Source: Actinomycetota bacterium (GTDB lineage: Bacteria > Actinomycetota > Actinomycetes > Mycobacteriales > HKI-0501). From it: a DNA stretch of 57,326 bases. A model generated the notes under the pieces. It was not told the origin of the DNA and ran no database searches. It saw only the letters and a list, made by a program, of their open reading frames with translations. Position numbers and translations under genes: made by a program. Of this stretch, positions 11,486 to 57,326 are shown piece by piece (position 1 is the first letter of the stretch; each line of letters begins with the position of its first letter). The stretch lies in contig JAVEDU010000037.1 of the NCBI GenBank assembly GCA_030840805.1, positions 1 through 57,326 of the forward strand, read 5' to 3'.

Positions 11486-12427
11486 TTGACGGTGCATCCC
11501 GACGCCCGGCGCTGGTTCGAGCGGCGCACCTCCGCCGCCACGGACTGGCCCGTCGACCTCCTGGCCGAACGCAAGGGCGCCACGACGGTCAGCGTGGTGC
11601 TCCCGGCGCTGGACGAGGAGCCGACCGTCGGCGGGATCGTCGAGGCCGTCCGTGCGCTGGCCGAGCGGACCGGCCTGGTGGACGAGGTCGTCGTCCTCGA
11701 CTCGGGCTCCGCGGACCGGACCGCCGAGGTCGCCGCGGCCGCCGGGGCGACCGTCCACCACCGTGACGACGTGCTCCCGCGGCTCGGCTCGTACCCCGGC
11801 AAGGGCGAGGTGCTGTGGAAGGCGCTGCACGTCACGAGCGGCGACGTGATCGTGTACGTCGACGCCGACCTCACCGGGTTCGGCCCGCACTACGTCACGG
11901 GGCTGCTCGGGCCGCTGCTGACCGATCCCGCGGTGCTGCTGACCAAGGCGTTCTACGACCGGCCGCTGCTCGACGTGTCGGCGGCGGGCGGCGGCCGGGT
12001 CACCGAGCTCATGGCCCGGCCGCTGCTGCAGGCGTACCTCCCTGCCCTCGCCGGGGTCGTCCAGCCGCTCGCCGGGGAGTACGCGGCACGCCGATCGCTG
12101 CTGGAGACGCTCCCGTTCGCGGCCGGGTACGGGGTGGAGACCGGGCTGCTGCTCGACACCGTGGCCGGGCACGGCCTCGACGCGGTGGCACAGGTCGACC
12201 TCGGTCATCGCACCCACGGCCACCAGGACACCGCGGCGCTCGGGCGGATGGCCGCGGCGATCCTGCGCACGGTGCTGTCCAGGGTGGACCCGGGCCGGGA
12301 GCCGTGGCCGGAGCTGACCCAGTTCCGGCGCGACGGCGCTGGCGCGGTGGAGCCGCACGACACCGCGGTCGCGCTGCCGGACCGCCCGCCGATGATCGGC
12401 ATCCCGGAGTACCGCGCCGCGAGCTGA
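11486..12427 (+). CDS. gpgS: Glucosyl-3-phosphoglycerate synthase
   Basis: A 313-residue GT81 glycosyltransferase that transfers glucose from a nucleotide sugar to 3-phosphoglycerate, the first step of methylglucose lipopolysaccharide or glucosylglycerate synthesis. Family signatures are the N-terminal FERRT, VLPALDEEPTVG, VLDSGSADRT, the metal motif VYVDADLTGF and the acceptor-site segment PLAGEYAARR. The TTG at 11486 is used here; a GTG two codons on is an alternative. It faces the quinone oxidoreductase convergently. Confidence 0.92.
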   Translation: MTVHPDARRWFERRTSAATDWPVDLLAERKGATTVSVVLPALDEEPTVGGIVEAVRALAERTGLVDEVVVLDSGSADRTAEVAAAAGATVHHRDDVLPRLGSYPGKGEVLWKALHVTSGDVIVYVDADLTGFGPHYVTGLLGPLLTDPAVLLTKAFYDRPLLDVSAAGGGRVTELMARPLLQAYLPALAGVVQPLAGEYAARRSLLETLPFAAGYGVETGLLLDTVAGHGLDAVAQVDLGHRTHGHQDTAALGRMAAAILRTVLSRVDPGREPWPELTQFRRDGAGAVEPHDTAVALPDRPPMIGIPEYRAAS

Positions 12428-12468
12428 CGGCCACCGGCCCGGCCACGACGCCCGCGGCGCCGGGCGCG

Positions 12469-13434
12469 TCACCGGGTGGTGATGACCAGCTTTCCGGTGG
12501 TGCGACGGGACTCCAGGTCCTCGTGTGCCCGCGCCGCCTCGTCGAGCGGGTACCGCCCGCCGATCCGCAGCTCCAGGTCGCCCGAGGAGATCGCGGCAAG
12601 GATGTCCCCGGCGCGCCAGGTCAGCTCGTCCCGGGTGGCGATGTACTCGGCCACCTTCGGCCGGGTCAGGAACAGCGATCCGAGCTGGTTGAGCCGCTGC
12701 GGGTCGAACGGCGGCACCTGGCCGCTCGACCCTCCGAAGAGGACCATCATTCCCCGCGGGCGCAGGGTCGTGAGGCTGTCGTCGAACGTGGCCTTCCCGA
12801 CGCCGTCGTACACCACGTCGACCCCACGCCCGTCGGTGAGCTTGCGGACGCCGTCGGCGAACCCGTCGTACCGCAGCACGTCGTCGGCGCCGGCCTGCCG
12901 CGCGAGGGACTCCTTCTCGTCGGTGGAGACGGTGGCGATCACCCGGCCGCCCCGCTGCTTGACGAGCTGGGTCAGCAGCAGGCCGACCCCGCCGGCCGCG
13001 GCGTGCACCAGCGCCGTGTCGCCCGGCCGCACGGCGAAGGTGGAGTTGGCCAGGTAGTGCGCGGTGACGCCCTGGAGGAGCGCGCCCGCGGCGAGGTCGC
13101 CGGGCAGGTCGTCCGGCACGCGGACCGCCTGCGACGCGGGCACCAGCACCTGCTCCGCGTAGCTGCCGGGCACGGCCATCCAGGCGACCCGGTCCCCCAC
13201 GGCGAACTCGGTGACGTCCGGCCCGACGGCGGAGACCCGCCCGGCGCCCTCGGACCCCGGGACGAACGGCGTCTGCATCGGGTACACGCCGCTGCGCTGG
13301 TACGTGTCGATGAAGTTCACGCCCGCGGCGGACGAGTCGACCACCAGCTGTCCGGGTCCCGCCTCGGGAGTGGGCCGGTCGGTGACCGTGAGCACCTCGG
13401 GACCGCCCTGTCGCGGTACGACCACTGCGCGCAT
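12469..13434 (-). CDS. NADPH:quinone oxidoreductase (zeta-crystallin type MDR)
   Basis: A 321-residue zinc-free medium-chain reductase. MRAVVVPRQGGPEVL opens a GroES-like domain with GVNFIDTYQRSG, and the Rossmann fold has the NADPH-site motif AAAGGVGLLLTQL. GVDVVYDGVGKATFDDSL and HEDLESRRTTGKLV match quinone reductases. The ATG at 13434 has a strong AGGAGGT six bases upstream, which rules out longer frames. It follows the ABC permease by 47 bases and may share its transcript. Confidence 0.93.
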   Translation of the reverse strand: MRAVVVPRQGGPEVLTVTDRPTPEAGPGQLVVDSSAAGVNFIDTYQRSGVYPMQTPFVPGSEGAGRVSAVGPDVTEFAVGDRVAWMAVPGSYAEQVLVPASQAVRVPDDLPGDLAAGALLQGVTAHYLANSTFAVRPGDTALVHAAAGGVGLLLTQLVKQRGGRVIATVSTDEKESLARQAGADDVLRYDGFADGVRKLTDGRGVDVVYDGVGKATFDDSLTTLRPRGMMVLFGGSSGQVPPFDPQRLNQLGSLFLTRPKVAEYIATRDELTWRAGDILAAISSGDLELRIGGRYPLDEAARAHEDLESRRTTGKLVITTR

Positions 13435-13481
13435 CTGCTGACCTCCTGTGGGCTTCAGGTTCCGGCCCATCCTGCCCGGTG

Positions 13482-14333
13482 TCAGCTCACGACGTCCTTC
13501 CGGGCGAACGCGCGCCACGCCAGCAGGAGGAACACGGTGGCGTACAGCAGCGCCGAGATCGCGCCCTTCGCCATGTCCTCGTACTGGAGCGGCGAGGAGA
13601 ACACGCCGGTCCAGGCGAGGTTGTACGCGGTCGGCAGCACGAACCGCACGCTTTCCAGCGCCGGCACCAGGTCGAGGATGTTGGAGACGATGTACAGCAT
13701 CACCGCGCCGCCGACGGCGAGCAGCGGCTGGTCCGTCCGCACCGAGAGCAGGAACGCCAGCGTGCCGGGAATCAGCAGGTGCACCAGCAGGAACCCGGTC
13801 GCGAGCGCGAGCAGTCCGAGGGACGTCCACGGCGCCACCTCGGCACCGATCGGGGTGCGCAGCGGGTGCCAGCCGTACACGAGCGTGCCGCCGACCACCG
13901 CGACCGTCATCAGCAGGACGACGGCGGCGGCGGAGGTGGCCGCGCCGACGAGCAGCTTCTGGCGCAACAGCCGGGATCGCGGTACGGGGAGCGCCAGCAG
14001 GTAGCGCAGGCTGCCCCACGAGGCCTCGCCCGCCACAGTGTCACCGCAGAACAGCGCGACCACCACCACGACGAGGAACGTGGCCGACGCGAACAGCGTG
14101 AAGGCCGCGAAGTTCGGCCCGCCCGCGGTGGCGACGTCGACGAGGCTGGCCCCGCGCTGGGACCCCCCGTCGTCCGGCCCGCCGAGCTGGAAGGCCCCGA
14201 GCAACAGCAGCGGGAGCAGCGCCAGGAAGCCGAAGCCGTACTGGGTGCGGCGGCGGGTGAGCTGGCGGCGCAGCTCGGTGGTGAAGGACAGCGTCCTCCC
14301 CGGCTGGTAGCCGGGTGCGGCGTCGACGGTCAC
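13482..14333 (-). CDS. ABC-2 type transporter permease
   Basis: A 283-residue integral membrane protein with about six hydrophobic helices (FGFLALLPLLLLGAF, FTLFASATFLVVVVVALF and others) and the cytoplasmic entry EASWGSLRYLLALPVPRSRL typical of ABC-2 permeases. Its GTG start overlaps the stop of the hydrolase/ATPase fusion by four bases, so the two are translationally coupled and must form the transporter. The cargo is unknown. Confidence 0.9.
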   Translation of the reverse strand: MTVDAAPGYQPGRTLSFTTELRRQLTRRRTQYGFGFLALLPLLLLGAFQLGGPDDGGSQRGASLVDVATAGGPNFAAFTLFASATFLVVVVVALFCGDTVAGEASWGSLRYLLALPVPRSRLLRQKLLVGAATSAAAVVLLMTVAVVGGTLVYGWHPLRTPIGAEVAPWTSLGLLALATGFLLVHLLIPGTLAFLLSVRTDQPLLAVGGAVMLYIVSNILDLVPALESVRFVLPTAYNLAWTGVFSSPLQYEDMAKGAISALLYATVFLLLAWRAFARKDVVS

Positions 14334-17179
14334 TGCTTGTCTCCTCCCACGAGAGTGAGGAACACGTCCTCGAGTCGCCGCCGCGGCGAGACCCGGTCGA
14401 CGCCGACCCCGCCCTCGACGAGCTGGCGGACGACCTCGATGCGGCCGGTGCCGTTGAGCGACGGGTCGAGGTCGACGACCACGCCCCCGTCGGAGCTGTG
14501 CGCGCGGGTGACTCCGGTGGCCCCCGCGAGCACGCGCAGCGCCGCATCGGTGTCGTCCACGCCGACCAGCACCGACGACGACTCCCCGGTCACCTCGGCC
14601 ACCGTGCCGGCCGCGACGAGCGTGCCCTGGTGCATGACCACGACATGGGTACAGGTCTGCTCGACCTCGGCGAGCAGGTGGCTGGAGACCAGTACCGTGC
14701 GCCCGTCGGTGGCGTATCGCCGGAGCACCTGCCGCATCTCGGCGATCTGCGGCGGGTCGAGCCCGTTCGTCGGCTCGTCCAGCACCAGCAGGTCCGGCAG
14801 GCCGAGCATCGCCTGGGCGATCGCGAGTCGCTGCCGCATGCCCTGGCTGTAGGTCTTGACCTTGCGTTCCACGGCACTGCCGAGTCCGGCGATCTCCAGT
14901 GCCTCGGCCAGGTACGAGTCGGCGTCGGGGCGGCCGGTCGCACGCCAGTACAGCCGGAGGTTGTCCGTTCCGGACAGGTGCGGCAGGAAGCCGGTGCCCT
15001 CCACAAAGGACCCGAGCCGGGACAGCACCGGCGCCCCGGCGCGGATTCGGTGGCCGAACACCTGGATCTCGCCGCCGGACGGCCGGATCAGGCCCATCAG
15101 CATGCGCAGCGTCGTGGTCTTGCCGGCGCCGTTCGGGCCGAGGAGCCCGAGCACCTGACCGCGCTCGACCGTGAAGGTCAGGTCTCGCACCGCGACGAAC
15201 CCGTCGTCATACGCCTTGGAGAGGTCGCGGATCACCAGCGGCCGGTCCGCGTTCTCCGGGTCCACGGTCGAGGACACCCGGCGCCGGCGTACCCGGGCGA
15301 CCAGCGCACCGACGGCCAGCGCCAGGGCGAGAACCAGGACGAGTCCGACGAGGAGGCGCGTCCACAGGCTGCCGGTGGCCGCCAGCGGGGTCGCCGGGAC
15401 CGTCGGGAGCGTGAGGTCGCCCGCGGCCGCCACCTGGTAGGTGGTGGGATCGGTGGGCAGCGCGTACGCCTGGTCGGTGGTGGACACCGCGAGCCGGAGC
15501 CGCTGGCCGGCCTCCAGCCGGTACGCGATGGCGGGCAGCGCGACGCGCACGGGCTCCGCGGCATCGAGCGTGCGCGGCAGGCCGGTCAGCCGCAGCGGTG
15601 CCACCAGGCCCTGCGGCAGCGTGGACCGGCCGTCCGGCCCGACGCTGTACAGCTTGACGAACAGCACCGCCTCGCCGGTCGCAGACGCGGCACGCAGCCG
15701 CACGGTCGGGGCGCCGACGACGTCGACGGCCCGGTCCAGCGGGCCCGAGCCGAAGGAGGCCACCTGACCCGGCACGTCGATCGTCGCGCCGCCGACGAGC
15801 GCGCCCGCGGCGCCGAGCCCCGGGACGGTCGAGATCGCGGCCGGGGAGCCGCCGGGCGGCGCCGCGATCGTCTGCGGCGGCCCGGACAGGGTGATCCGGC
15901 GCGGGTCTCCGCTGCCGGCGAGCCCCGGGTACGCCGGGGCGCTGAAGCCGGTCGAGGTGACCCGGCCGGTGGAGAGGTTCAGGCCACCGGAGTTGCTGAA
16001 GGTGAACGAGGTCCCGCCCGAGCCGGCCTTTTTCACGTACCTGTCGAGCCACTGCAGGGTCAGGAACCTCACCCGGTCCTGGTCGGCCTGCGACCCGCTC
16101 GCGTCGTGGCCGCCGGAGTACCAGGCGACCCGGACCGGCGTGCCGTTCGCCGCGATGCCGCGGGCGTTCGCGTCCGCCTCCGCGAGCGGGAACAGCGAGT
16201 CGGCCTGCCCCTGCACGAGCAGGGTGGGCGCGGTGATCCGGTCGAGGACGGACTGCGGGCTGCGCCGGTCGAGCAGGGCCTGGGCCGACGGCGTGGCGCG
16301 GCCGGTGGTGGCGATCTCGAGATACATCCGGCAGATCTCGGCGGTGAAGCGGCCGCACTGCGGGTCGGCGGCGGGCGGCGCGGCGCGGCGCGGACCGCCG
16401 GACGCGGGGGCACCGGACGAGCTCGGCGCGGGTGAGCCCGACGCATCCGGGGCCGCGGCGCCGCCGCCGAGGATCGCGGCCGGGTCGAGTCCGCTGCTGC
16501 CGAAGAACAGGCCCGCCCACGACCTCTTGAACACCCCGGACGTGGCCGGGCCACCGTCGGAGTTCGGGAAGAACGCGCGGGACAGGCTGTTCCAGGTGAT
16601 CTGCGGGACCACCGCGTCGACGCGGGGGTCGTGGCCGGCGAGCAGCAGCGCGAGGCCGCCGCCGTACGAGCCACCCACCACGCCCACGCGCGGGTCACCG
16701 GGCCGGTCCTTCTGGACCTGGGGCATCCCGGCGAGCCGGTCGAGCAGCCGACGGGCGTCGTTGACCTCGTAGGCGGGGTCGTCGAGCCCGATCCGGCCGC
16801 CGGAGCGGCCGAAGCCGCGCGCGGTCCAGGTCTGCACCACGTATCCCTGGCCGGCCAGCTCCTTCGCCTCGGTGGCGACGCTGTCCTTGGTCCCGCCGAA
16901 GCCGTGGGCCAGCAGGACGGCGGGCGCCGGGTGGGCCGAGGTCGCGCTCCGCGGGACGTACAGCCCGGTGTCGAGGGTGACCGGCTCGTCGCCACCCGGA
17001 CCGGACCGCACGGTCACCATCGCGTCGGAGCTGCCGTACGGCTCACCGCTGGGCCAGGCAGCCCAGGTGATGCCGGCGGCGACCAGGACGGCCACCACGG
17101 CGCCCGTCACCACCCGCCGGCGGACGGAGGGGCGGGACAGGGCGGCACGCAGCCGGGCCGGGCGGGAGGGGAGGGCCAC
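14330..17179 (-). CDS. Fusion of S15/CocE-type alpha/beta hydrolase with ABC transporter ATPase
   Basis: A 949-residue protein in five parts. A signal-anchor helix lies near 23-42. An alpha/beta hydrolase of the Xaa-Pro dipeptidyl-peptidase/CocE group covers about 60-385, with nucleophile motif GGSYGG near 170, Asp in GQADSLFP near 325 and His in SGGHDASG near 356. A beta-rich X-Pro C-terminal domain covers about 390-600, a second helix about 607-632, and a complete ABC ATPase about 645-949 (Walker A GPNGAGKTT, signature YSQGM near 776, Walker B LLVLDEP near 799). The hydrolase would lie outside and the ATPase inside. The downstream permease completes an ABC-2 exporter. Substrate unknown; possibly export coupled to hydrolysis. 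Confidence 0.92.
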   Translation of the reverse strand: MALPSRPARLRAALSRPSVRRRVVTGAVVAVLVAAGITWAAWPSGEPYGSSDAMVTVRSGPGGDEPVTLDTGLYVPRSATSAHPAPAVLLAHGFGGTKDSVATEAKELAGQGYVVQTWTARGFGRSGGRIGLDDPAYEVNDARRLLDRLAGMPQVQKDRPGDPRVGVVGGSYGGGLALLLAGHDPRVDAVVPQITWNSLSRAFFPNSDGGPATSGVFKRSWAGLFFGSSGLDPAAILGGGAAAPDASGSPAPSSSGAPASGGPRRAAPPAADPQCGRFTAEICRMYLEIATTGRATPSAQALLDRRSPQSVLDRITAPTLLVQGQADSLFPLAEADANARGIAANGTPVRVAWYSGGHDASGSQADQDRVRFLTLQWLDRYVKKAGSGGTSFTFSNSGGLNLSTGRVTSTGFSAPAYPGLAGSGDPRRITLSGPPQTIAAPPGGSPAAISTVPGLGAAGALVGGATIDVPGQVASFGSGPLDRAVDVVGAPTVRLRAASATGEAVLFVKLYSVGPDGRSTLPQGLVAPLRLTGLPRTLDAAEPVRVALPAIAYRLEAGQRLRLAVSTTDQAYALPTDPTTYQVAAAGDLTLPTVPATPLAATGSLWTRLLVGLVLVLALALAVGALVARVRRRRVSSTVDPENADRPLVIRDLSKAYDDGFVAVRDLTFTVERGQVLGLLGPNGAGKTTTLRMLMGLIRPSGGEIQVFGHRIRAGAPVLSRLGSFVEGTGFLPHLSGTDNLRLYWRATGRPDADSYLAEALEIAGLGSAVERKVKTYSQGMRQRLAIAQAMLGLPDLLVLDEPTNGLDPPQIAEMRQVLRRYATDGRTVLVSSHLLAEVEQTCTHVVVMHQGTLVAAGTVAEVTGESSSVLVGVDDTDAALRVLAGATGVTRAHSSDGGVVVDLDPSLNGTGRIEVVRQLVEGGVGVDRVSPRRRLEDVFLTLVGGDKQ

Positions 17180-38144: not shown

Positions 38145-39365
38145 CTAACCCTTGTACTGGAGGATGTACAACCCGACGTTCCAGTCGGTCACGTACATGA
38201 CGCCGTTCGGGTCGACGAACACGTCGGCCGTGTGCGCGACCGCGGGGCGGCCCGGCCGCGTGTCGAACATCTTCTCCGGCGGCCCCGGGACGAAGTAGCC
38301 GGTCTCCTCCGGGCGGAACTGGTTCGAGATGTCGAACACCCGGACGCCCGCGTTCTGGTACGTCGCGAACACCAGCGTGTCGGACTGGAACGACCCCGGC
38401 CGGTTCTCGTGCAGGTTGTGCGGTCCGAAGTGGCCGCCGAGCGTCGCGTAGTCGTCCTCGTCCGGCGTCGGGAAGGTCGAGATCGGCACCGGGTTGGTGG
38501 GCTCCCGGACGTCCACCACCCAGGTGTACTTGACGCCGTCCGCGCACTCGTCCGCGACGGCCTCGTCGGCGACGACCACCAGACCCCGACTGGGCAGTGG
38601 GAGGCACGAGTGCGTACCGCCGCCGAACGGCGGGTTGGTGTTGAGGTGCGACAGCATCGTGATGTTCGCGGGATCCTTGACGTCGAGCAGGACCAGGCCG
38701 CCGTCCCGCCAGGCGGTGTACGCGATGCCGTCGGCGACCAGCCCGTGGTGCAGCGCGTACCGCTGGTCCGGCGACCAGTCCGGGGTCTCACCACCGGCGG
38801 CGTGGATGCCCGGCAGGTGCCAGCGTCCGGCCTCGACCGGCTTCGTCGGGTCCGACATGTCGATCACCATGAAGAAGTGGTCGATGTACCCGTCGACGTG
38901 GACGGAGATGTACGCGTACCGCCCGCCCACGTACCAGATCCGATGCAGGCCGAGCCCGTCGACCGGCATGAAGCCGATCTCACGCGGGTTGGCGCGGTCG
39001 GAGATGTCGTACACCCGCAGCCCGGCGGCGAAGTTCTTCTCGATCCGGCCGTAGGCATCGCCGATGTTGCCGCCGTAGTACTCGCTCTCGTCGGTGAAGA
39101 GGCGGAACAGGTCGACCTCGTTGATGACCAGGAGCAGGTCCCCGTGGGCCTGCAGGTGGATCGCCCACGTGTTCGGCGGAGTCGGGACGAAGTTCACCGG
39201 CTTCGGGTTCCGCGGGTCCTTCACGTCGAGCACCGTGAACCCGCCGCTGAACATGTGGGCCACGTAGGCGTAGCCGTCCTGCACCATGATCTGGAGACCG
39301 TCCGCGCGGCCGCCCTGGTCGGAGTGGCTCAGCACGTCGATGTTCCGCTGCTTCTGGACGTTCAT
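38145..39365 (-). CDS. LVIVD-repeat beta-propeller-like protein
   Basis: 406 residues of repeats of the type GLRVYDISDRANPREIGF, each ending in a DIS/DVKDP turn: at least six are visible. LVIVD proteins are predicted propellers of unknown function, often extracytoplasmic, but no signal peptide is seen here (MNVQKQRNIDVLSHSD), so a cytoplasmic or otherwise exported location is open. His-rich pockets (HHG, HSC, GPHNLHENRP) could bind metal. It follows the ABC importer operon after a hairpin. Confidence 0.82.
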   Translation of the reverse strand: MNVQKQRNIDVLSHSDQGGRADGLQIMVQDGYAYVAHMFSGGFTVLDVKDPRNPKPVNFVPTPPNTWAIHLQAHGDLLLVINEVDLFRLFTDESEYYGGNIGDAYGRIEKNFAAGLRVYDISDRANPREIGFMPVDGLGLHRIWYVGGRYAYISVHVDGYIDHFFMVIDMSDPTKPVEAGRWHLPGIHAAGGETPDWSPDQRYALHHGLVADGIAYTAWRDGGLVLLDVKDPANITMLSHLNTNPPFGGGTHSCLPLPSRGLVVVADEAVADECADGVKYTWVVDVREPTNPVPISTFPTPDEDDYATLGGHFGPHNLHENRPGSFQSDTLVFATYQNAGVRVFDISNQFRPEETGYFVPGPPEKMFDTRPGRPAVAHTADVFVDPNGVMYVTDWNVGLYILQYKG

Positions 39366-39404
39366 CGCACCTCTATCGCATCGCTGGGTCGGACTACGGG
39401 GCGC

Positions 39405-39440
39405 GGCCGGGGCCCGTGCGGCGTTGTACGAGCCCCGGCC
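39405..39440 (-). terminator. Terminator of the ABC importer operon
   Basis: GGCCGGGGC (39405-39413) pairs with GCCCCGGCC (39432-39440). It begins 15 bases after the stop of the binding-protein gene and precedes the LVIVD gene. Confidence 0.7.
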
Positions 39441-39454
39441 GGGTCAGTCGGAGA

Positions 39455-40609
39455 TCAGACGCCCCAGACCTTCTTGTACTCGTCCCGGTAGCCGTGCTCC
39501 GGGTCGTAGCGGTTCTCCTTGCCACCGTCGAACTCGATGTTCTCCTTGGTGACGAGGTGGACCTGCGGGGTGTATCCGCTCCACTCCTGGCCGTTGAACG
39601 CGCGGTTCAGCTCGTCGACGCACTCCCAGCCCTGGAGGTTCAGGGGCTCGGCGACCGTCCCGATCTGGTACTGACCGCTGCGGATCCGCTGGAACGCCGA
39701 CTCGCTGCCGTCACCGGCGGAGATGAAGTGGAGCGGGCCGCTCGGCGCCTTGCCGGCCGTCCGGGCCGCCGCCAGGGCGTAGTCGAAGTACAGGTCGTTG
39801 ACGCCCAGGCCGTACGTCCACTTCGGACCGTGCTTGCTGATCAGGTTGGACGTCAGCGGCTGCATGCGGGCCGCGGTGTCGGCGATCGGGGTGTCCTGCG
39901 TCTCCAGGACGGTGCAGCCGCCGCACTTCTCGAGCTCGTCCCGCATCACGTCGGACTTGGTGATCGCGATGGCGTAGACGGAGTCGGTGAAGAGGACGAC
40001 ACCGGCCTTGCCCTCCGAGTGGTCGATCGCCTGCATCGCGGTCGCCCTGGCCACGTCGTCGGCCTTGGTGGTGATGTTCGCGAACATCTTCGGGCTGGCG
40101 ACCGGGCCGGGATCGGTGGTGGAGTGCCAGCCGACGACCGTGATGCCGGCCGCATCGGCCTTCTCGATCTGGGTCTTCGCCTGGACGGCGTCGACCGTGC
40201 CGAGCACGATGCCGTCCGGCTTCAGCGCGATGGCCTGGTCGAGCGCGGTGCTCGCCCCGGCCGCCGTGCCCTTGCCGTCGAGGATCCGGACCGACCAGCC
40301 CAGGGCCTTCGAGGCCTCCTCGACGCCCTTGCTGACGCCGAGGGCACCACCGTTCCGCTGGTCGGCGGACACGTAGACGATCGACTTGCCCTTCGCGCCC
40401 TTCGGGCCCGTGGTGGGGCCGTCCCACTTATCGGCCTTGGCGGTGTACACCGCCACCTGGGCCTTCACGTCGGCGAGGAACTTCGCGTCGGTGCTGCCGC
40501 CGCCGTCGCCCCCGCTCGAGCCGCTCCCGGAACTGCAGCCCGCCGCCACGGCAACCGCCATCGCCAGGGGCAGCAGCCGCTTGGCCGCCATTACGTGCCT
40601 TCTCGCCAT
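39455..40609 (-). CDS. Ribose-type ABC importer substrate-binding lipoprotein
   Basis: A 384-residue periplasmic-binding-protein type 1 family member. The signal peptide ends in lipobox VAAGC. SIVYVSADQRNGGALGVSKG, LDQAIALKPDGIVLGTVD and AAGITVVGWHSTTDPGP are the family strands. The ligand is probably a sugar or related polyol but could be another small polar compound. ATG at 40609 has AAGGAG nine bases upstream. It is the last gene of the operon, after the permease. Confidence 0.92.
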   Translation of the reverse strand: MARRHVMAAKRLLPLAMAVAVAAGCSSGSGSSGGDGGGSTDAKFLADVKAQVAVYTAKADKWDGPTTGPKGAKGKSIVYVSADQRNGGALGVSKGVEEASKALGWSVRILDGKGTAAGASTALDQAIALKPDGIVLGTVDAVQAKTQIEKADAAGITVVGWHSTTDPGPVASPKMFANITTKADDVARATAMQAIDHSEGKAGVVLFTDSVYAIAITKSDVMRDELEKCGGCTVLETQDTPIADTAARMQPLTSNLISKHGPKWTYGLGVNDLYFDYALAAARTAGKAPSGPLHFISAGDGSESAFQRIRSGQYQIGTVAEPLNLQGWECVDELNRAFNGQEWSGYTPQVHLVTKENIEFDGGKENRYDPEHGYRDEYKKVWGV

Positions 40610-51812: not shown

Positions 51813-52357
51813 GCCCTGCGGCCCAGGAAGCAGAGCAGCCGCGTCTGCTCGTCCGCGTCGGGCGGTGGCTCGATCGCGGGGCCGCACACGCCCTCGGTGC
51901 GGATCGTGTCGCCGAAACCGGCCGCGGCTTCCCACAGGTGCGCCACCTCGCCTGGGTCGAGCCGGTCGTCCAGCCCGGCGGCCCTCGCCAGGTCCCAGCG
52001 GTGGATCAGCAGGTCGAAGCAGACGAAGCGCCCCACCGCCGCGCCGAGCGACGTCCGGCCGAAGAACCCGTCGAACTCCTCCCCGGCTCGGGCGGGGTCG
52101 TCGAGATCGGCCTGCAACTGGTCGCGCGCCGCACGCCAGGCGGCCCGGACGTCCTCCTCGACGGAGGGGGCGGGGTCGAGCGTGCGCCCGACCAACCCGA
52201 GGAACAGGCCGTGCACCTCGACGAGATGCCGGGTGACGTCGAGTGCGGTCCAGCCCTCGCAGGGCGACGGGCTGCTCCAGCGGTCGGGCGGCACCTGCTC
52301 GATCGTGCGGCTGACGTCGGCCGCGAGGCGGCGGTAGCGGTCGGCAACGGTGGTCAT
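51809..52357 (-). CDS. DinB/maleylpyruvate isomerase-like metal-binding protein (TIGR03086 type)
   Basis: 182 residues. The N-terminal block PCEGWTALDVTRHLVEVH and later DLLIHRWDLARA carry the three His of the DinB-fold metal site. Mycothiol-dependent enzymes share this fold, but TIGR03086 proteins have no assigned reaction. Confidence 0.9.
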   Translation of the reverse strand: MTTVADRYRRLAADVSRTIEQVPPDRWSSPSPCEGWTALDVTRHLVEVHGLFLGLVGRTLDPAPSVEEDVRAAWRAARDQLQADLDDPARAGEEFDGFFGRTSLGAAVGRFVCFDLLIHRWDLARAAGLDDRLDPGEVAHLWEAAAGFGDTIRTEGVCGPAIEPPPDADEQTRLLCFLGRRA

Positions 52358-52421
52358 GCGGACGACGGTAGGCCCGCGCGTACCGCCGGTCTTGGAGGAA
52401 CGCGACAACTACGCTGCGGTC

Positions 52422-53237
52422 GTGGTCGAACCGGTGGAGCGGGACAGTCGTGGCATCCTGCACCCGGGTGCCGGGCTCGAACGCTTCCGGCTCGCGCGGG
52501 TGGCGCCGTCGCGCACGGTCGCGCGGTTCGTCGACCGGTACTGGCTGACGTCGTGGTCGCTGCCGGCGGGCGGCCGGCACGAACAGGTCGTGCTCGTGCA
52601 CCCCGTGGTGAACGTGGTGTTCGAACCCGCGGGGGCCACCATCGGCGGCGTGCGACGAGAACGGTTCACGCGCGAGCTGACCGGCGCCGGCCGCGTGCTC
52701 GGGGTGATGTTCCGGCCGGCCGGCTTCCGGCCGTTCCTGGGTGGTCCGATGTCGACGCTCACCGACACCGCCGTACCGCTGTCCACTGTGCTTCCCGGGG
52801 CGGCGGCGCTGGAACGGGCCGTCGCCGACGCGCTGGCGGGCGGCGTCCCCGATGCCGAGATCGTGTCGCTGGTGGACCGCGCCCTGACGGCACACCTGCC
52901 GGCGGAGCGACAGCAGTCCGAGGACACCACGGTGTGGGCCGAGCGCATCGCGACCGACCGGGAGCTCCGCCGGGTGGACGACGTGGCCCGGCTCGCCGGG
53001 CTGAGTGTGCGGGGGCTACAGCGGAGGTTCGCCGACCACGTCGGCATCGGTCCGAAGTGGATGATCCGCCGGTATCGGCTGTACGAGGTCGCCGAACGCG
53101 CCGCAAGGCACGAGACGGTGGACTGGGCGGCGCTCGCAACAGAGCTCGGCTACGCCGACCAGGCTCACCTGGTCCGGGACTTCACCGCGGCGGTGGGCGA
53201 ACCGCCGGCGCGGTACGCCGGCCGAGGGCCACGGTGA
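52422..53237 (+). CDS. AraC-family transcriptional regulator
   Basis: 271 residues: an N-terminal sensing domain of the DUF6597 kind (VARFVDRYWLTSWSLPAG) and a C-terminal AraC helix-turn-helix pair (VDDVARLAGLSVRGLQRRF, then LATELGYADQAHLVRDF). Start GTG at 52422 is a choice among several; the divergent DinB-like gene, 64 bases away, is a likely target. Confidence 0.9.
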   Translation: MVEPVERDSRGILHPGAGLERFRLARVAPSRTVARFVDRYWLTSWSLPAGGRHEQVVLVHPVVNVVFEPAGATIGGVRRERFTRELTGAGRVLGVMFRPAGFRPFLGGPMSTLTDTAVPLSTVLPGAAALERAVADALAGGVPDAEIVSLVDRALTAHLPAERQQSEDTTVWAERIATDRELRRVDDVARLAGLSVRGLQRRFADHVGIGPKWMIRRYRLYEVAERAARHETVDWAALATELGYADQAHLVRDFTAAVGEPPARYAGRGPR

Positions 53238-53478
53238 GCGGGCGGCCGCGGTGGCAGCAGGAGGACCCCGACGACGAACCGCTGCGAGTCGGGAACGCAC
53301 AGCCCGGTGACTCGGGCACGCGACGCCGACGATGAGCCAGGACGTGTAACTGGCCGCAAGATCGGTGACCCGCGAGTCACCGCCGCGCTGGAAGCCGCGC
53401 TCGGCCCGGAGCCGGACGAAAGGCATGGGCACGACCGTTGCTGATCACGACCGCAACCCCGCTGAGCTGCGGGAACAG
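53238..53478. other. Chromosomal flank of the att site, possible short reading frame
   Basis: A 45-codon frame from GTG 53307 to 53444 looks mildly coding (RKIGDPRVTAALEAALGPEP) but has no family match or clear ribosome site. It may be the end of a decayed gene. Confidence 0.3.
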
Positions 53479-53520
53479 AGCCGACGAGGGGACTTGAACC
53501 CCTAACCGCCCGATTACAAG
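53479..53520 (-). other. att site: 3' half of tRNA-Thr(UGU)
   Basis: Exactly 42 bases on the minus strand: anticodon loop CTTGTAA, stem TCGGG, variable CGGTT, T-arm AGGGG/TTCAAGT/CCCCT, acceptor CGTCGGC and discriminator T. Upstream, where CCCGA should pair with TCGGG, the sequence does not match, so no 5' half exists. This is what remains at one edge when an element integrates in a tRNA gene and rebuilds it at the other edge. Confidence 0.88.
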
Positions 53521-53867
53521 TGCGCCGCGATCTGTCCGGGCCCGACGGATGCCGTCTGCCCCTTGTACCTATGTGCTGGTGAGAGGCCAAGTCTTGTCCT
53601 GTGTTGTCCGCGGGAGTACTGCGCTCGTGCACGGTGCTTGTGACACCGGCGTGACATCTCGATGCGAACTCCGGGCACGGTGGTCGGCCGGGGGCGCGCC
53701 CGAGGTCAGCGGGGTGGCAGCCGTCGTGCTCGGACGTGGTTCGACGGCGTGGTTGCTGTACTTCGCTGCTGTACGACCCCCCACAGGTGAGATCATCGAC
53801 GTCATGGCCCGAGACGTTGTACGCATGTGCCAGTACGGATGGCCTGGCAGCTATACGGAGACTGCAA

Positions 53868-54065
53868 ATGATGGGTGAGCCGGCGCATCGCATTGCGCTC
53901 CTCGTGTGGATGACGTCGCTCTCCGTATTCATGTTAATCACAGCCTCCCCTGGGTGGCCGAAGATCATTGGCGGCTGCATGTTCTTGCCGCTGGCCGTGC
54001 AGATGGCGTGGGACTGGTGGAAGGGTCGACAAACCAAGCTGCGGAAGGTTGGACCAGACGTCTGA
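53868..54065 (+). CDS. Small two-helix membrane protein of the mobile element
   Basis: 65 residues: IALLVWMTSLSVFMLITA and IIGGCMFLPLAVQMAWDW are hydrophobic, followed by a basic tail. GGAG lies seven bases before a double ATG. Between the att site and this gene (53521-53867) I see no supported gene. Function unknown. Confidence 0.65.
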   Translation: MMGEPAHRIALLVWMTSLSVFMLITASPGWPKIIGGCMFLPLAVQMAWDWWKGRQTKLRKVGPDV

Positions 54066-54565
54066 GGGATCACCAGGGCCACGGGTCCGACAGACCTGAT
54101 CGCCGGGCCTGATCCGCTCCCACACGACTCCTCGTCTGTCCATCCCGTCTGCCGTCGACCCACCGCTTGTGGGAGCGGACGCGTGCCGGGGGCCGCCACG
54201 ACGTCGACGGCTGAAACGACACCGCCCAATGCTGGCGGTCCCCGGTGCGGGTCTGCTCGGCTCTGCCTGGGTCGACGGTGGACGGGATGGGCAGCTCTTA
54301 GCCCACTACACGACCGGGGGCCGCGAGCCGTGGTCGTCTATCCCGGAGCCGGAGCGCCCCCGCCGGAGGCATCACCACGTCGCTGCCGCACCGATTCGGC
54401 CTCTGGCTCAACTCCCCTGCCGGTGTCGTCGCCGGGACCGGCGCGCCCCCAGGCGCGCCGCAGCCCGGCGTCCGGCCCGCGCAGCGGGCCGCTTGATCCA
54501 TAAGAGGTCAACTCGGCAGCGGAACGCGGCGCGGACTGACAGACGGTGTGCCTACTCTGGCCCGC
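54066..54565. other. 500 bases without a supported gene
   Basis: Open frames are Arg-rich and unconvincing. Near the end, TACTCT (54553-54558) stands seven bases before the HD gene ATG and could be a -10 box for a leaderless transcript. Confidence 0.5.
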
Positions 54566-55141
54566 ATGGTGGACGGTCAGGAGTCACTCGCCGGGTGGGC
54601 GCGTGGGCTGGCTGAGCAGTACCTGGCCGACACGTTGCCGCGCAGGTGGAGCCATGTGCAGGGCGTTGCCGCGCAGGCCGTGACGCTTGGTCCGGTGGTC
54701 GGTGACGATGCGGACTTGCTGGTAGCGGCGGCGTGGCTCCACGACCTGGGCTACGCCCCCGATCTCTCCGACACGGGCTTCCATCCGATTGACGGAGCCA
54801 ACCACCTTCGGCGCCTCGGCGTACCGGGCCGTCTCTCGGGCCTGGTCGCGCACCACTCCTGCGCGCTGCTGGAAGCGAACATGCGCGGCCTCGCAGACCA
54901 CTTGGAGCCGGAGTTCCCTCGCGAGGAGTCCGCGACCGCCGACGCGCTCTGGTACGCCGACCTGACCACAGGACCTGACGGACAACGGTTTGCCGTCGAG
55001 GAACGCTTGGACGAGATCGAGGCCCGGTACGGCCCTGGCGATCTCGTCACGCAGTTCATCCAGTGTGCTCGGCCGCACATGGTCGCCGCCGTCCACCGCA
55101 CGGAGGCGCGCCTGGCGGCGCATCAGCCGAGGTACGGCTGA
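54566..55141 (+). CDS. HD-domain phosphohydrolase
   Basis: 191 residues. The metal site is visible as H in WSHVQGV near 29, HD in AAWLHDLGYAPD and H in VAHHSC. HD proteins cleave phosphate esters of nucleotides or (p)ppGpp-like signals; the substrate is unknown. No ribosome site precedes the ATG. The 3' end overlaps the convergent NUDIX gene by 19 bases. Confidence 0.85.
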   Translation: MVDGQESLAGWARGLAEQYLADTLPRRWSHVQGVAAQAVTLGPVVGDDADLLVAAAWLHDLGYAPDLSDTGFHPIDGANHLRRLGVPGRLSGLVAHHSCALLEANMRGLADHLEPEFPREESATADALWYADLTTGPDGQRFAVEERLDEIEARYGPGDLVTQFIQCARPHMVAAVHRTEARLAAHQPRYG

Positions 55142-55593
55142 GGGTTCCTGGCGTACCCGTGGTCGATCCGCAGCCGCATCTCAGGGTGGATTGGAAGGTC
55201 GTCCAGCTGGTCCCGCGCGAACCACCGCACGTCGGTGGACTCGCTGCTCGGCTGGAGTTCGCCGCCGGTGGGTCGCGCCCGGAGGCAGATGGAGAACTGT
55301 TGCCGGACCTCGCCGTCGCTGTAGGCGATCACGTGGCCGGGGTTGCTGTAGATCCCCACGAGCCCGGTCACCTCGACGTCGAGTCCGGCTTCCTCGCGCG
55401 TCTCGCGGACTGCGCTCTCCGCGACCGTCTCGCCGAACTCCTGGCCGCCGCCGGGAAGCGCCCACTTCCCGCTGTCGCTCCGGCGGATCAGCAGCACCCG
55501 GCCGTTGTCGTCTTGGACGAACGCGGTCGTCGCGACGACGATGCTGTTCGGCTTCGGCGCGTCGGGATCGTTGAGGTACTCCGTGCGCGCCAA
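55123..55593 (-). CDS. NUDIX hydrolase, possibly a Pif-type transfer immunity factor
   Basis: 156 residues with a complete Nudix box, GGQEFGETVAESAV followed by RETREEAGLD. In the AICE pSAM2, Pif, a protein with a Nudix motif, blocks redundant transfer into cells that already hold the element. The same position beside the regulator makes that role possible here; a nucleotide-sanitising role is the alternative. TTG at 55593 has GAGGGGGCGAG upstream. It follows the XRE gene by 16 bases. Confidence 0.88.
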   Translation of the reverse strand: MARTEYLNDPDAPKPNSIVVATTAFVQDDNGRVLLIRRSDSGKWALPGGGQEFGETVAESAVRETREEAGLDVEVTGLVGIYSNPGHVIAYSDGEVRQQFSICLRARPTGGELQPSSESTDVRWFARDQLDDLPIHPEMRLRIDHGYARNPQPYLG

Positions 55594-55609
55594 CTCGCCC
55601 CCTCGGTCC

Positions 55610-56353
55610 TCACGGCCAGGCCGGTACGGCTTCCGACCATACGCGGTCGTAGGCCTCTGAGTACGTGCGGAAGAGGTCACCCTCGGAGAGCTGACGTAGG
55701 TGCAGGAGAGGCGCGTGCGCGGCAGGGAGGCCGTACACGTGGAGGGTCACGAGCATGTTGCTGTCGAACCGGTAGATCGAGCTGTAGAGGTTCGTCCCGT
55801 GGAGGCGGACGTCCACGCCGGCCACGTCACTGAGCGGGCGATAGTGCACCAGCACGTTCCGGATCTTGTGCGCGATCGCGTCTCCGATCCCCTCCTCCCG
55901 GCCACGTTCCGCGATCTGTGCGGCGTCGGGATCACCGAAGAGCAGCCGTACCTTGGCCCCGGCTCCGGCGCGCTCGGTGAGCTCGGTGATGAGCCTCGGG
56001 TTCTGTTCCGGCAGGAACAGTCCCGCGTAGACGAGAAGGTCCACGTGATCGGTGGCGTCCCGGAGCAGTCGCATCCACAGCTCGGACGGGGCGTCGGAGC
56101 GGTGCGGGAAGAGCTCGACCACCTCGGACCGAGCGACCTCGCCCCGACGCGCGGAGGGGAGGGCTTCTGGCCAGAGGTAGGACTCCGATTCGCGGACCAG
56201 CGTCGCGATGCTGTGCCGGTGGCGTCGGTACGGCACCCGTCCGAGCGTGATCCATCGCTCGCATGTCTTGGGGTCTACGTCCAGGTGCTCGGCAAGCGCC
56301 TCAGGGGTCGTGCCGTGACGGAGCAGCGCATCGCGGAGCCGATCGTTCGGCAT
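55610..56353 (-). CDS. XRE-type regulator with C-terminal PLD-like domain
   Basis: 247 residues. An N-terminal helix-turn-helix (TPEALAEHLDVDPKTCERWI) and a C-terminal domain like phospholipase D folds (VRLLFGDPDAAQIAERG, HKIRNVLVHYRPL, RLHGTNLYSSIYRFDSN) in which the catalytic HxK is degenerate. Such fusions are frequent in actinomycete mobile elements. GGGGAGG precedes the ATG. It is divergent from the transfer-side genes, with repeated GGGACG words between. Confidence 0.88.
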   Translation of the reverse strand: MPNDRLRDALLRHGTTPEALAEHLDVDPKTCERWITLGRVPYRRHRHSIATLVRESESYLWPEALPSARRGEVARSEVVELFPHRSDAPSELWMRLLRDATDHVDLLVYAGLFLPEQNPRLITELTERAGAGAKVRLLFGDPDAAQIAERGREEGIGDAIAHKIRNVLVHYRPLSDVAGVDVRLHGTNLYSSIYRFDSNMLVTLHVYGLPAAHAPLLHLRQLSEGDLFRTYSEAYDRVWSEAVPAWP

Positions 56354-56373
56354 GACGCCTCCCCAGATCGGTA

Positions 56374-56414
56374 GGGACGACTTCACGCTACCGCAGGACG
56401 TCCCTAGTCGTCCC
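56374..56414. promoter_or_regulatory. Operator-like repeats between the XRE regulator and the transfer genes
   Basis: GGGACGACT (56374-56382) and AGTCGTCCC (56406-56414) are perfect inverted copies 23 bases apart; between them GGACGTCC (56397-56404) is a short palindrome with the same word. They lie 20-60 bases from the regulator start and are good candidates for its binding sites. Confidence 0.65.
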
Positions 56415-56511
56415 GTTGTGCGGTGATTGCGTACCGGCCTCCGAAGCCACCGTGGTGTCACCGCCAGGACGCCGCCGAGGGCGGCGGGCGTGGATCACAG
56501 GAGGCCCCAGC

Positions 56512-56895
56512 ATGGCTGCCAACGGACGTATCCCGGTCAGGCATGAGGACGTGTTCCCCCAGCCGACGACGCTGCTGTCGGTGGACCCGGTGGAGGACTT
56601 CGACCGCAAGCGGGCCGGGGACGGGGACCCGCAGGAGCGGGACAAGGACACGGGTATGCGGCTGTGGGCGGTGTCGGTCATCGACCCGTCCGCGCAGGCC
56701 GGTCGGCGTGAGATCAAGGTCAAGGTGCCCGCGGAGCATCAGCCGGTGCCGCCGAACGGGGTCGGGCAGCCGGTGGAGTTCGACGGCCTGGTGGTGATTC
56801 CGTACCTCGACACGAACCGGGCGAAGCCGCGGGTGGGGATCGCCTACCGGGCGGCGGGGTTCCGTGGTGCCAAGTCGATGCCGAAGGCGTCGTGA
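56512..56895 (+). CDS. Conserved small protein of actinomycete conjugative elements
   Basis: 127 residues starting MAANGRIPVRHEDVFPQ, with a beta-rich middle (MRLWAVSVIDPSAQAGRREI, VEFDGLVVIPYLD) and IAYRAAGFRGAKS at the end. Proteins of this kind stand ahead of the FtsK-like transfer gene in AICEs, possibly as replication or transfer accessory factors. AGGAGG lies seven bases before the ATG. Confidence 0.82.
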   Translation: MAANGRIPVRHEDVFPQPTTLLSVDPVEDFDRKRAGDGDPQERDKDTGMRLWAVSVIDPSAQAGRREIKVKVPAEHQPVPPNGVGQPVEFDGLVVIPYLDTNRAKPRVGIAYRAAGFRGAKSMPKAS

Positions 56896-56896
56896 C

Positions 56897-57292
56897 ATGG
56901 CCGCGCCGGTGCAGTTCCCGGAGGAGTGGGACCGTGACGTGCGGTCTGAGTCGCAGTCGCGGGCGTTGATCGCGATGGCGGCGTTCCCGTACGACCTGGG
57001 GTCGGTGAACGTGAGTTTCACCGGCGGCGGCGGGGTCGAGGTGTCGATGCACCACGCCGCTGCCGAGGAGGTCGCCGTGATGGCGGCCCTGCTGGGCGTC
57101 GGGGTGGGACCGGTCCCGGACCTGCACGCCTCGGCGGTCATTCACTTCGCCGGGTCGGCGTACCTGTCGGGCGGACTGTCGCTGGTCTGGTACCTCGCGC
57201 CGCCGGAACCGCGACCGGATGTCGAGCACCGGCGACGGCAGTGGGACGCCCTGACGACCGCTCTCACGACCACCGCGACTACGGCCGGGTGA
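56897..57292 (+). CDS. Second small protein of the transfer operon
   Basis: 131 residues, acidic at the start (FPEEWDRDVRSESQ), no membrane helix or known motif. It starts one base after the previous stop, so the two are translationally coupled. A GTG at 57298 (GTG GGC ACC CGG CGG) may begin the next gene, expected to be the FtsK/TraB translocase, but only 29 bases of it are in view. Confidence 0.75.
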   Translation: MAAPVQFPEEWDRDVRSESQSRALIAMAAFPYDLGSVNVSFTGGGGVEVSMHHAAAEEVAVMAALLGVGVGPVPDLHASAVIHFAGSAYLSGGLSLVWYLAPPEPRPDVEHRRRQWDALTTALTTTATTAG

Positions 57293-57326
57293 GTCAGGTG
57301 GGCACCCGGCGGCGCGTCACCACCAC

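Follow-up and report, generated by a model that had tools for sequence, protein, structure and literature searches.

The plan of actinomycete integrative and conjugative elements (AICEs) was laid out by Ghinet et al. 2011 (PMC3218068), and a complete 11.4-kb element built on that plan is found in Nocardia sp. AG03 (locus L013): 11,375 bp separate its two repeat copies, and its contents include RepSA, an FtsK/TraB-type protein and an integrase. AICE integrases specific for tRNA-Thr have been reported in the pSE211-type integrase group (Ghinet et al. 2011, PMC3218068). In the AICE03 family of Streptomyces, switching of the integrase and excisionase alters the insertion site (PMC9513070); the principle of a change of integrase in AICEs is therefore known from the literature.

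The window analysed here is the whole of contig C95 (57,326 bases), which belongs to a 4.46-Mb genome assembled into 111 contigs. Near its right end, positions 53475-53521 are very probably the integrase-distal attachment site of an integrated element, hereafter A. The evidence for the integration junction is good, and membership of A among the AICEs is probable. The features discussed below are the following:

52350..53237, plus strand: AraC-type regulator (DUF6597 and HTH_18, Pfam domains), chromosomal flank
53475..53521, minus strand: attachment repeat at the integrase-distal end, whose 47 bp match the tRNA-Thr(UGU) 3' half at C62:38412-38458 exactly
53479..53520, minus strand: tRNA-Thr(UGU) 3' half running from C32 to discriminator 73 (no tRNA detected by ARAGORN in the window)
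53736..54065, plus strand: small ORF of the element, weakly supported as a gene (no Pfam match)
54136..54521, no strand: segment 89% identical to C72 (second element) by sequence comparison, 27-nt inverted repeat conserved
54548..55141, plus strand: HD-domain protein of the element (domain match)
55123..55605, minus strand: NUDIX hydrolase of the element (domain match)
55610..56461, minus strand: probable regulator of the element, weak BldC-type HTH / DUF5919 match
56512..56895, plus strand: SCO3933-family regulatory protein-like, element (weak similarity, below the curated cut-off)
56897..57292, plus strand: small protein, 97% identical to its counterpart in the second element (sequence comparison)
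57200..57326, no strand: exact overlap of 127 bp with one end of C72, marking the left border of the unassembled core common to both elements

Read on the minus strand, window positions 53520 to 53479 run from C32, the first base of the anticodon loop, to the discriminator T73 of tRNA-Thr(UGU). A reading of the sequence alone had described these 42 bases as a 3' half lacking its 5' half, and our base-by-base reading agrees. ARAGORN detected no tRNA gene in the whole window, from which the 5' half of tRNA-Thr is absent; Rfam likewise reported no tRNA at the half-site, and its matches in the window are chance ones only. When the 42 bases were searched in the genome with up to 3 mismatches allowed, a single further copy was retrieved, with 0 mismatches; it lies on contig C62, as part of an intact tRNA-Thr(UGU) gene at about 38382-38454. 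Exact identity between the two contigs extends over 47 bp, window 53475-53521 (minus strand) corresponding to C62:38412-38458, and runs from A31 to 5 bases beyond the acceptor stem, discriminator included. The sequence of the block is ACTTGTAATCGGGCGGTTAGGGGTTCAAGTCCCCTCGTCGGCTCTGT. Outside it the two contigs are unrelated on both sides, and the tRNA-Thr(UGU) 5' half occurs on C62, not at the C95 copy. An exact match of 47 bases with such sharp edges goes far beyond chance. The tRNA 3' end is thereby found as a direct repeat, with the intact gene at one end and the half gene at the other, the ends lying on two contigs. The sequence-only reading had offered the 42 bases as both a precise boundary and the att core: the junction stands, while the length of the core has to be corrected to 47 bp.

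Because the half tRNA reads leftward, the element lies to the right, on its 5' side, as had been proposed; the left-hand sequence once came directly after the intact tRNA. The gene content agrees with this orientation. The left flank carries chromosomal-type genes (TerC, Fe-ADH and the AraC-type regulator), and the right side accessory genes together with the SCO3933-family-like gene; GC content is 0.72 left of the junction versus 0.69 right of it. SCO3933-family-like genes are typical of AICEs. The small protein encoded at 56897..57292 found no counterpart when 297 further genomes of the order were searched. A relative of the SCO3933-like protein is encoded in a genome of the same family (G001, locus L039, 15369-15758), about 6 kb downstream of tRNA-Thr(UGU).

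In the segment 54136-54521, the arms of the 27-nt inverted repeat stand 105 nt apart. The segment is a possible cis-acting site, perhaps an origin or a transfer site; a clear array of short direct repeats was not found in it, and we assign it no function.

The other end of A lies on a separate contig because C95 stops 3.8 kb to the right of the half tRNA. An intact tRNA-Thr gene containing the same 42 bases, next to an integrase gene, had been anticipated to the right of the window; it exists, but on C62. Beyond the tRNA-Thr(UGU) gene, C62 carries a convergent tyrosine integrase gene (38530-39693, 387 aa) whose product keeps the catalytic residues R, H-x-x-R, H and Y, as in its relatives. Next to it is an HTH_17 excisionase-like gene, and upstream of this xis a rep-like tail of 38 residues, recognised from a short alignment only and with no Pfam match. 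All of the actinobacterial integrase relatives that have a tRNA-side flank (7/7) adjoin a tRNA-Thr gene, either CGT or UGU, at a distance of about 100 bp or less.

The element of Nocardia sp. AG03 offers the closest comparison. Its integrase is 49% identical to that of A, its target is also a tRNA-Thr gene, and its repeat, 54 bp long, starts at the same tRNA base as that of A; unlike A, it targets the CGT isoacceptor, and it has no match to the cargo proteins of the window. With the tRNA-Thr-specific AICEs (PMC3218068), A shares a tyrosine integrase adjoining tRNA-Thr and, at the far end, a second copy of the tRNA 3' end as a direct repeat. The core of A is, however, not visible, and the likeness drawn here is one of target and layout.

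What lies between the two ends was approached through the contig ends. C95 and C72 end in the same 127 bases, and the final 127 bases of C62 match exactly the start of C63 in reverse complement. A contig-end pattern search of the assembly found no third contig bearing either shared end, and no core contig. Such equal overlaps of 127 would be expected at repeat borders from de Bruijn assembly with k = 127. C63 carries a tRNA-Gly(CCC) gene adjoined by an integrase different from that of C62, and C72 carries a tRNA-Gly 3' half within an identical repeat of 76 bp whose tRNA portion is found genome-wide on C63 and C72 only. Since the attachment sites differ (tRNA-Thr versus tRNA-Gly), the ends can be assigned to one element or the other. 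On the evidence of these sequences there are two elements: A, made of C62, the core and C95, at tRNA-Thr, and B, made of C63, the core and C72, at tRNA-Gly(CCC). The ends of B occupy positions 12111-17134 of locus L053 (C72) and 1-1636 of locus L052 (C63). C62 and C95, which are not physically joined in the assembly, would be linked across the gap. The absence of the core from the assembly would follow from B carrying the same core as A; the collapse of the assembly suggests that the two cores are near-identical. The A/B pair accounts for the assembly gap.

Searches of the assembly for the FtsK and RepSA families gave matches at other loci only, none of them assignable to A. The sole RepSA belongs to a third element on C81, unrelated to A and B (locus L047, C81:155001-175000), which also contains an FtsK-type fragment and a SCO3933-like gene, with a tRNA-Asn(GTT) nearby. 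The idea that the missing core resides elsewhere in the assembly was rejected, as the FtsK and RepSA matches lie at other loci, this unrelated element included.

Under the explanation that we favour, the integrase would have recombined the chromosomal tRNA-Thr gene with an attP that contained its own copy of the tRNA 3' half. The gene would have been rebuilt at the integrase end, and the original 3' half displaced to the far end. The resulting order would be: C62 flank, intact tRNA-Thr(UGU), integrase, excisionase-like gene, rep end, missing core, SCO3933-like gene, NUDIX and HD cargo, tRNA 3' half and chromosomal flank. Element A would then carry traB and a full rep, and may be able to excise and transfer. 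We looked for an empty site at the tRNA-Thr(UGU) loci of 9 other genomes, but in none of them (0/9) is the neighbourhood conserved relative to both C62 and C95, so that no empty site came to light.

The junction might instead belong to another kind of tRNA-integrated island, such as a defective element, a prophage or a satellite. The missing core leaves room for this, as rep and traB of A are not seen, and one IMG/VR contig carries a related integrase. Nevertheless, a related integrase resides in a complete element with RepSA and an FtsK-type protein, a SCO3933-like gene is present, and a rep-like tail precedes xis, so that we consider such an island unlikely. That the half tRNA is a degenerate remnant of an old insertion, its right-hand neighbours having nothing to do with the C62 integrase, is highly improbable: the two ends do lie on separate contigs, but the repeat is 100% identical across 47 bp, and both contig ends run into one repeat structure present in two copies, for which a remnant offers no explanation.

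Returning to A as an AICE paired with B, the comparison of the two elements points to the exchange of a module. On the integrase side, the rep-like tail is common to A and B up to its stop codon, and divergence starts in the first codons of the excisionase-like gene; the two integrases are 29% identical. On the far side, A and B are 97% identical over the last 0.4 kb. The cargo differs, with HD and NUDIX genes in A, and a gene for a GntR/UTRA regulator and a 2'-5' RNA ligase-like gene in B. As part of the favoured explanation, which we hold as a whole with high confidence, A and B would differ by a replaced xis-int-att module, with the switch at the rep/xis boundary. A broader proposition, which we find plausible with less assurance, is that one genome houses two AICEs whose replication-transfer cores are effectively identical but whose xis-int-att modules differ (tRNA-Thr and tRNA-Gly), and that this recent swap of the integration module lets otherwise competing elements coexist at separate sites. 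The AICE03 family of a Streptomyces population (PMC9513070) is similar in having one transfer core with differing integrase/excisionase genes and insertion sites; its variants are, however, found in different strains, whereas A and B appear to share one genome. Such a pair, alike in core and unlike in integration module, would offer a clear natural example of an integrase switch inside a single cell. The element, from a sparsely sampled actinobacterial family, also provides exact att sites together with the integrase that fits them, which could be used in tools for site-specific integration.

In another genome of the same family (G002, locus L038, 12591-13416), a different integrase directly adjoins tRNA-Thr(UGU), a gene that seems to be used repeatedly as a target.
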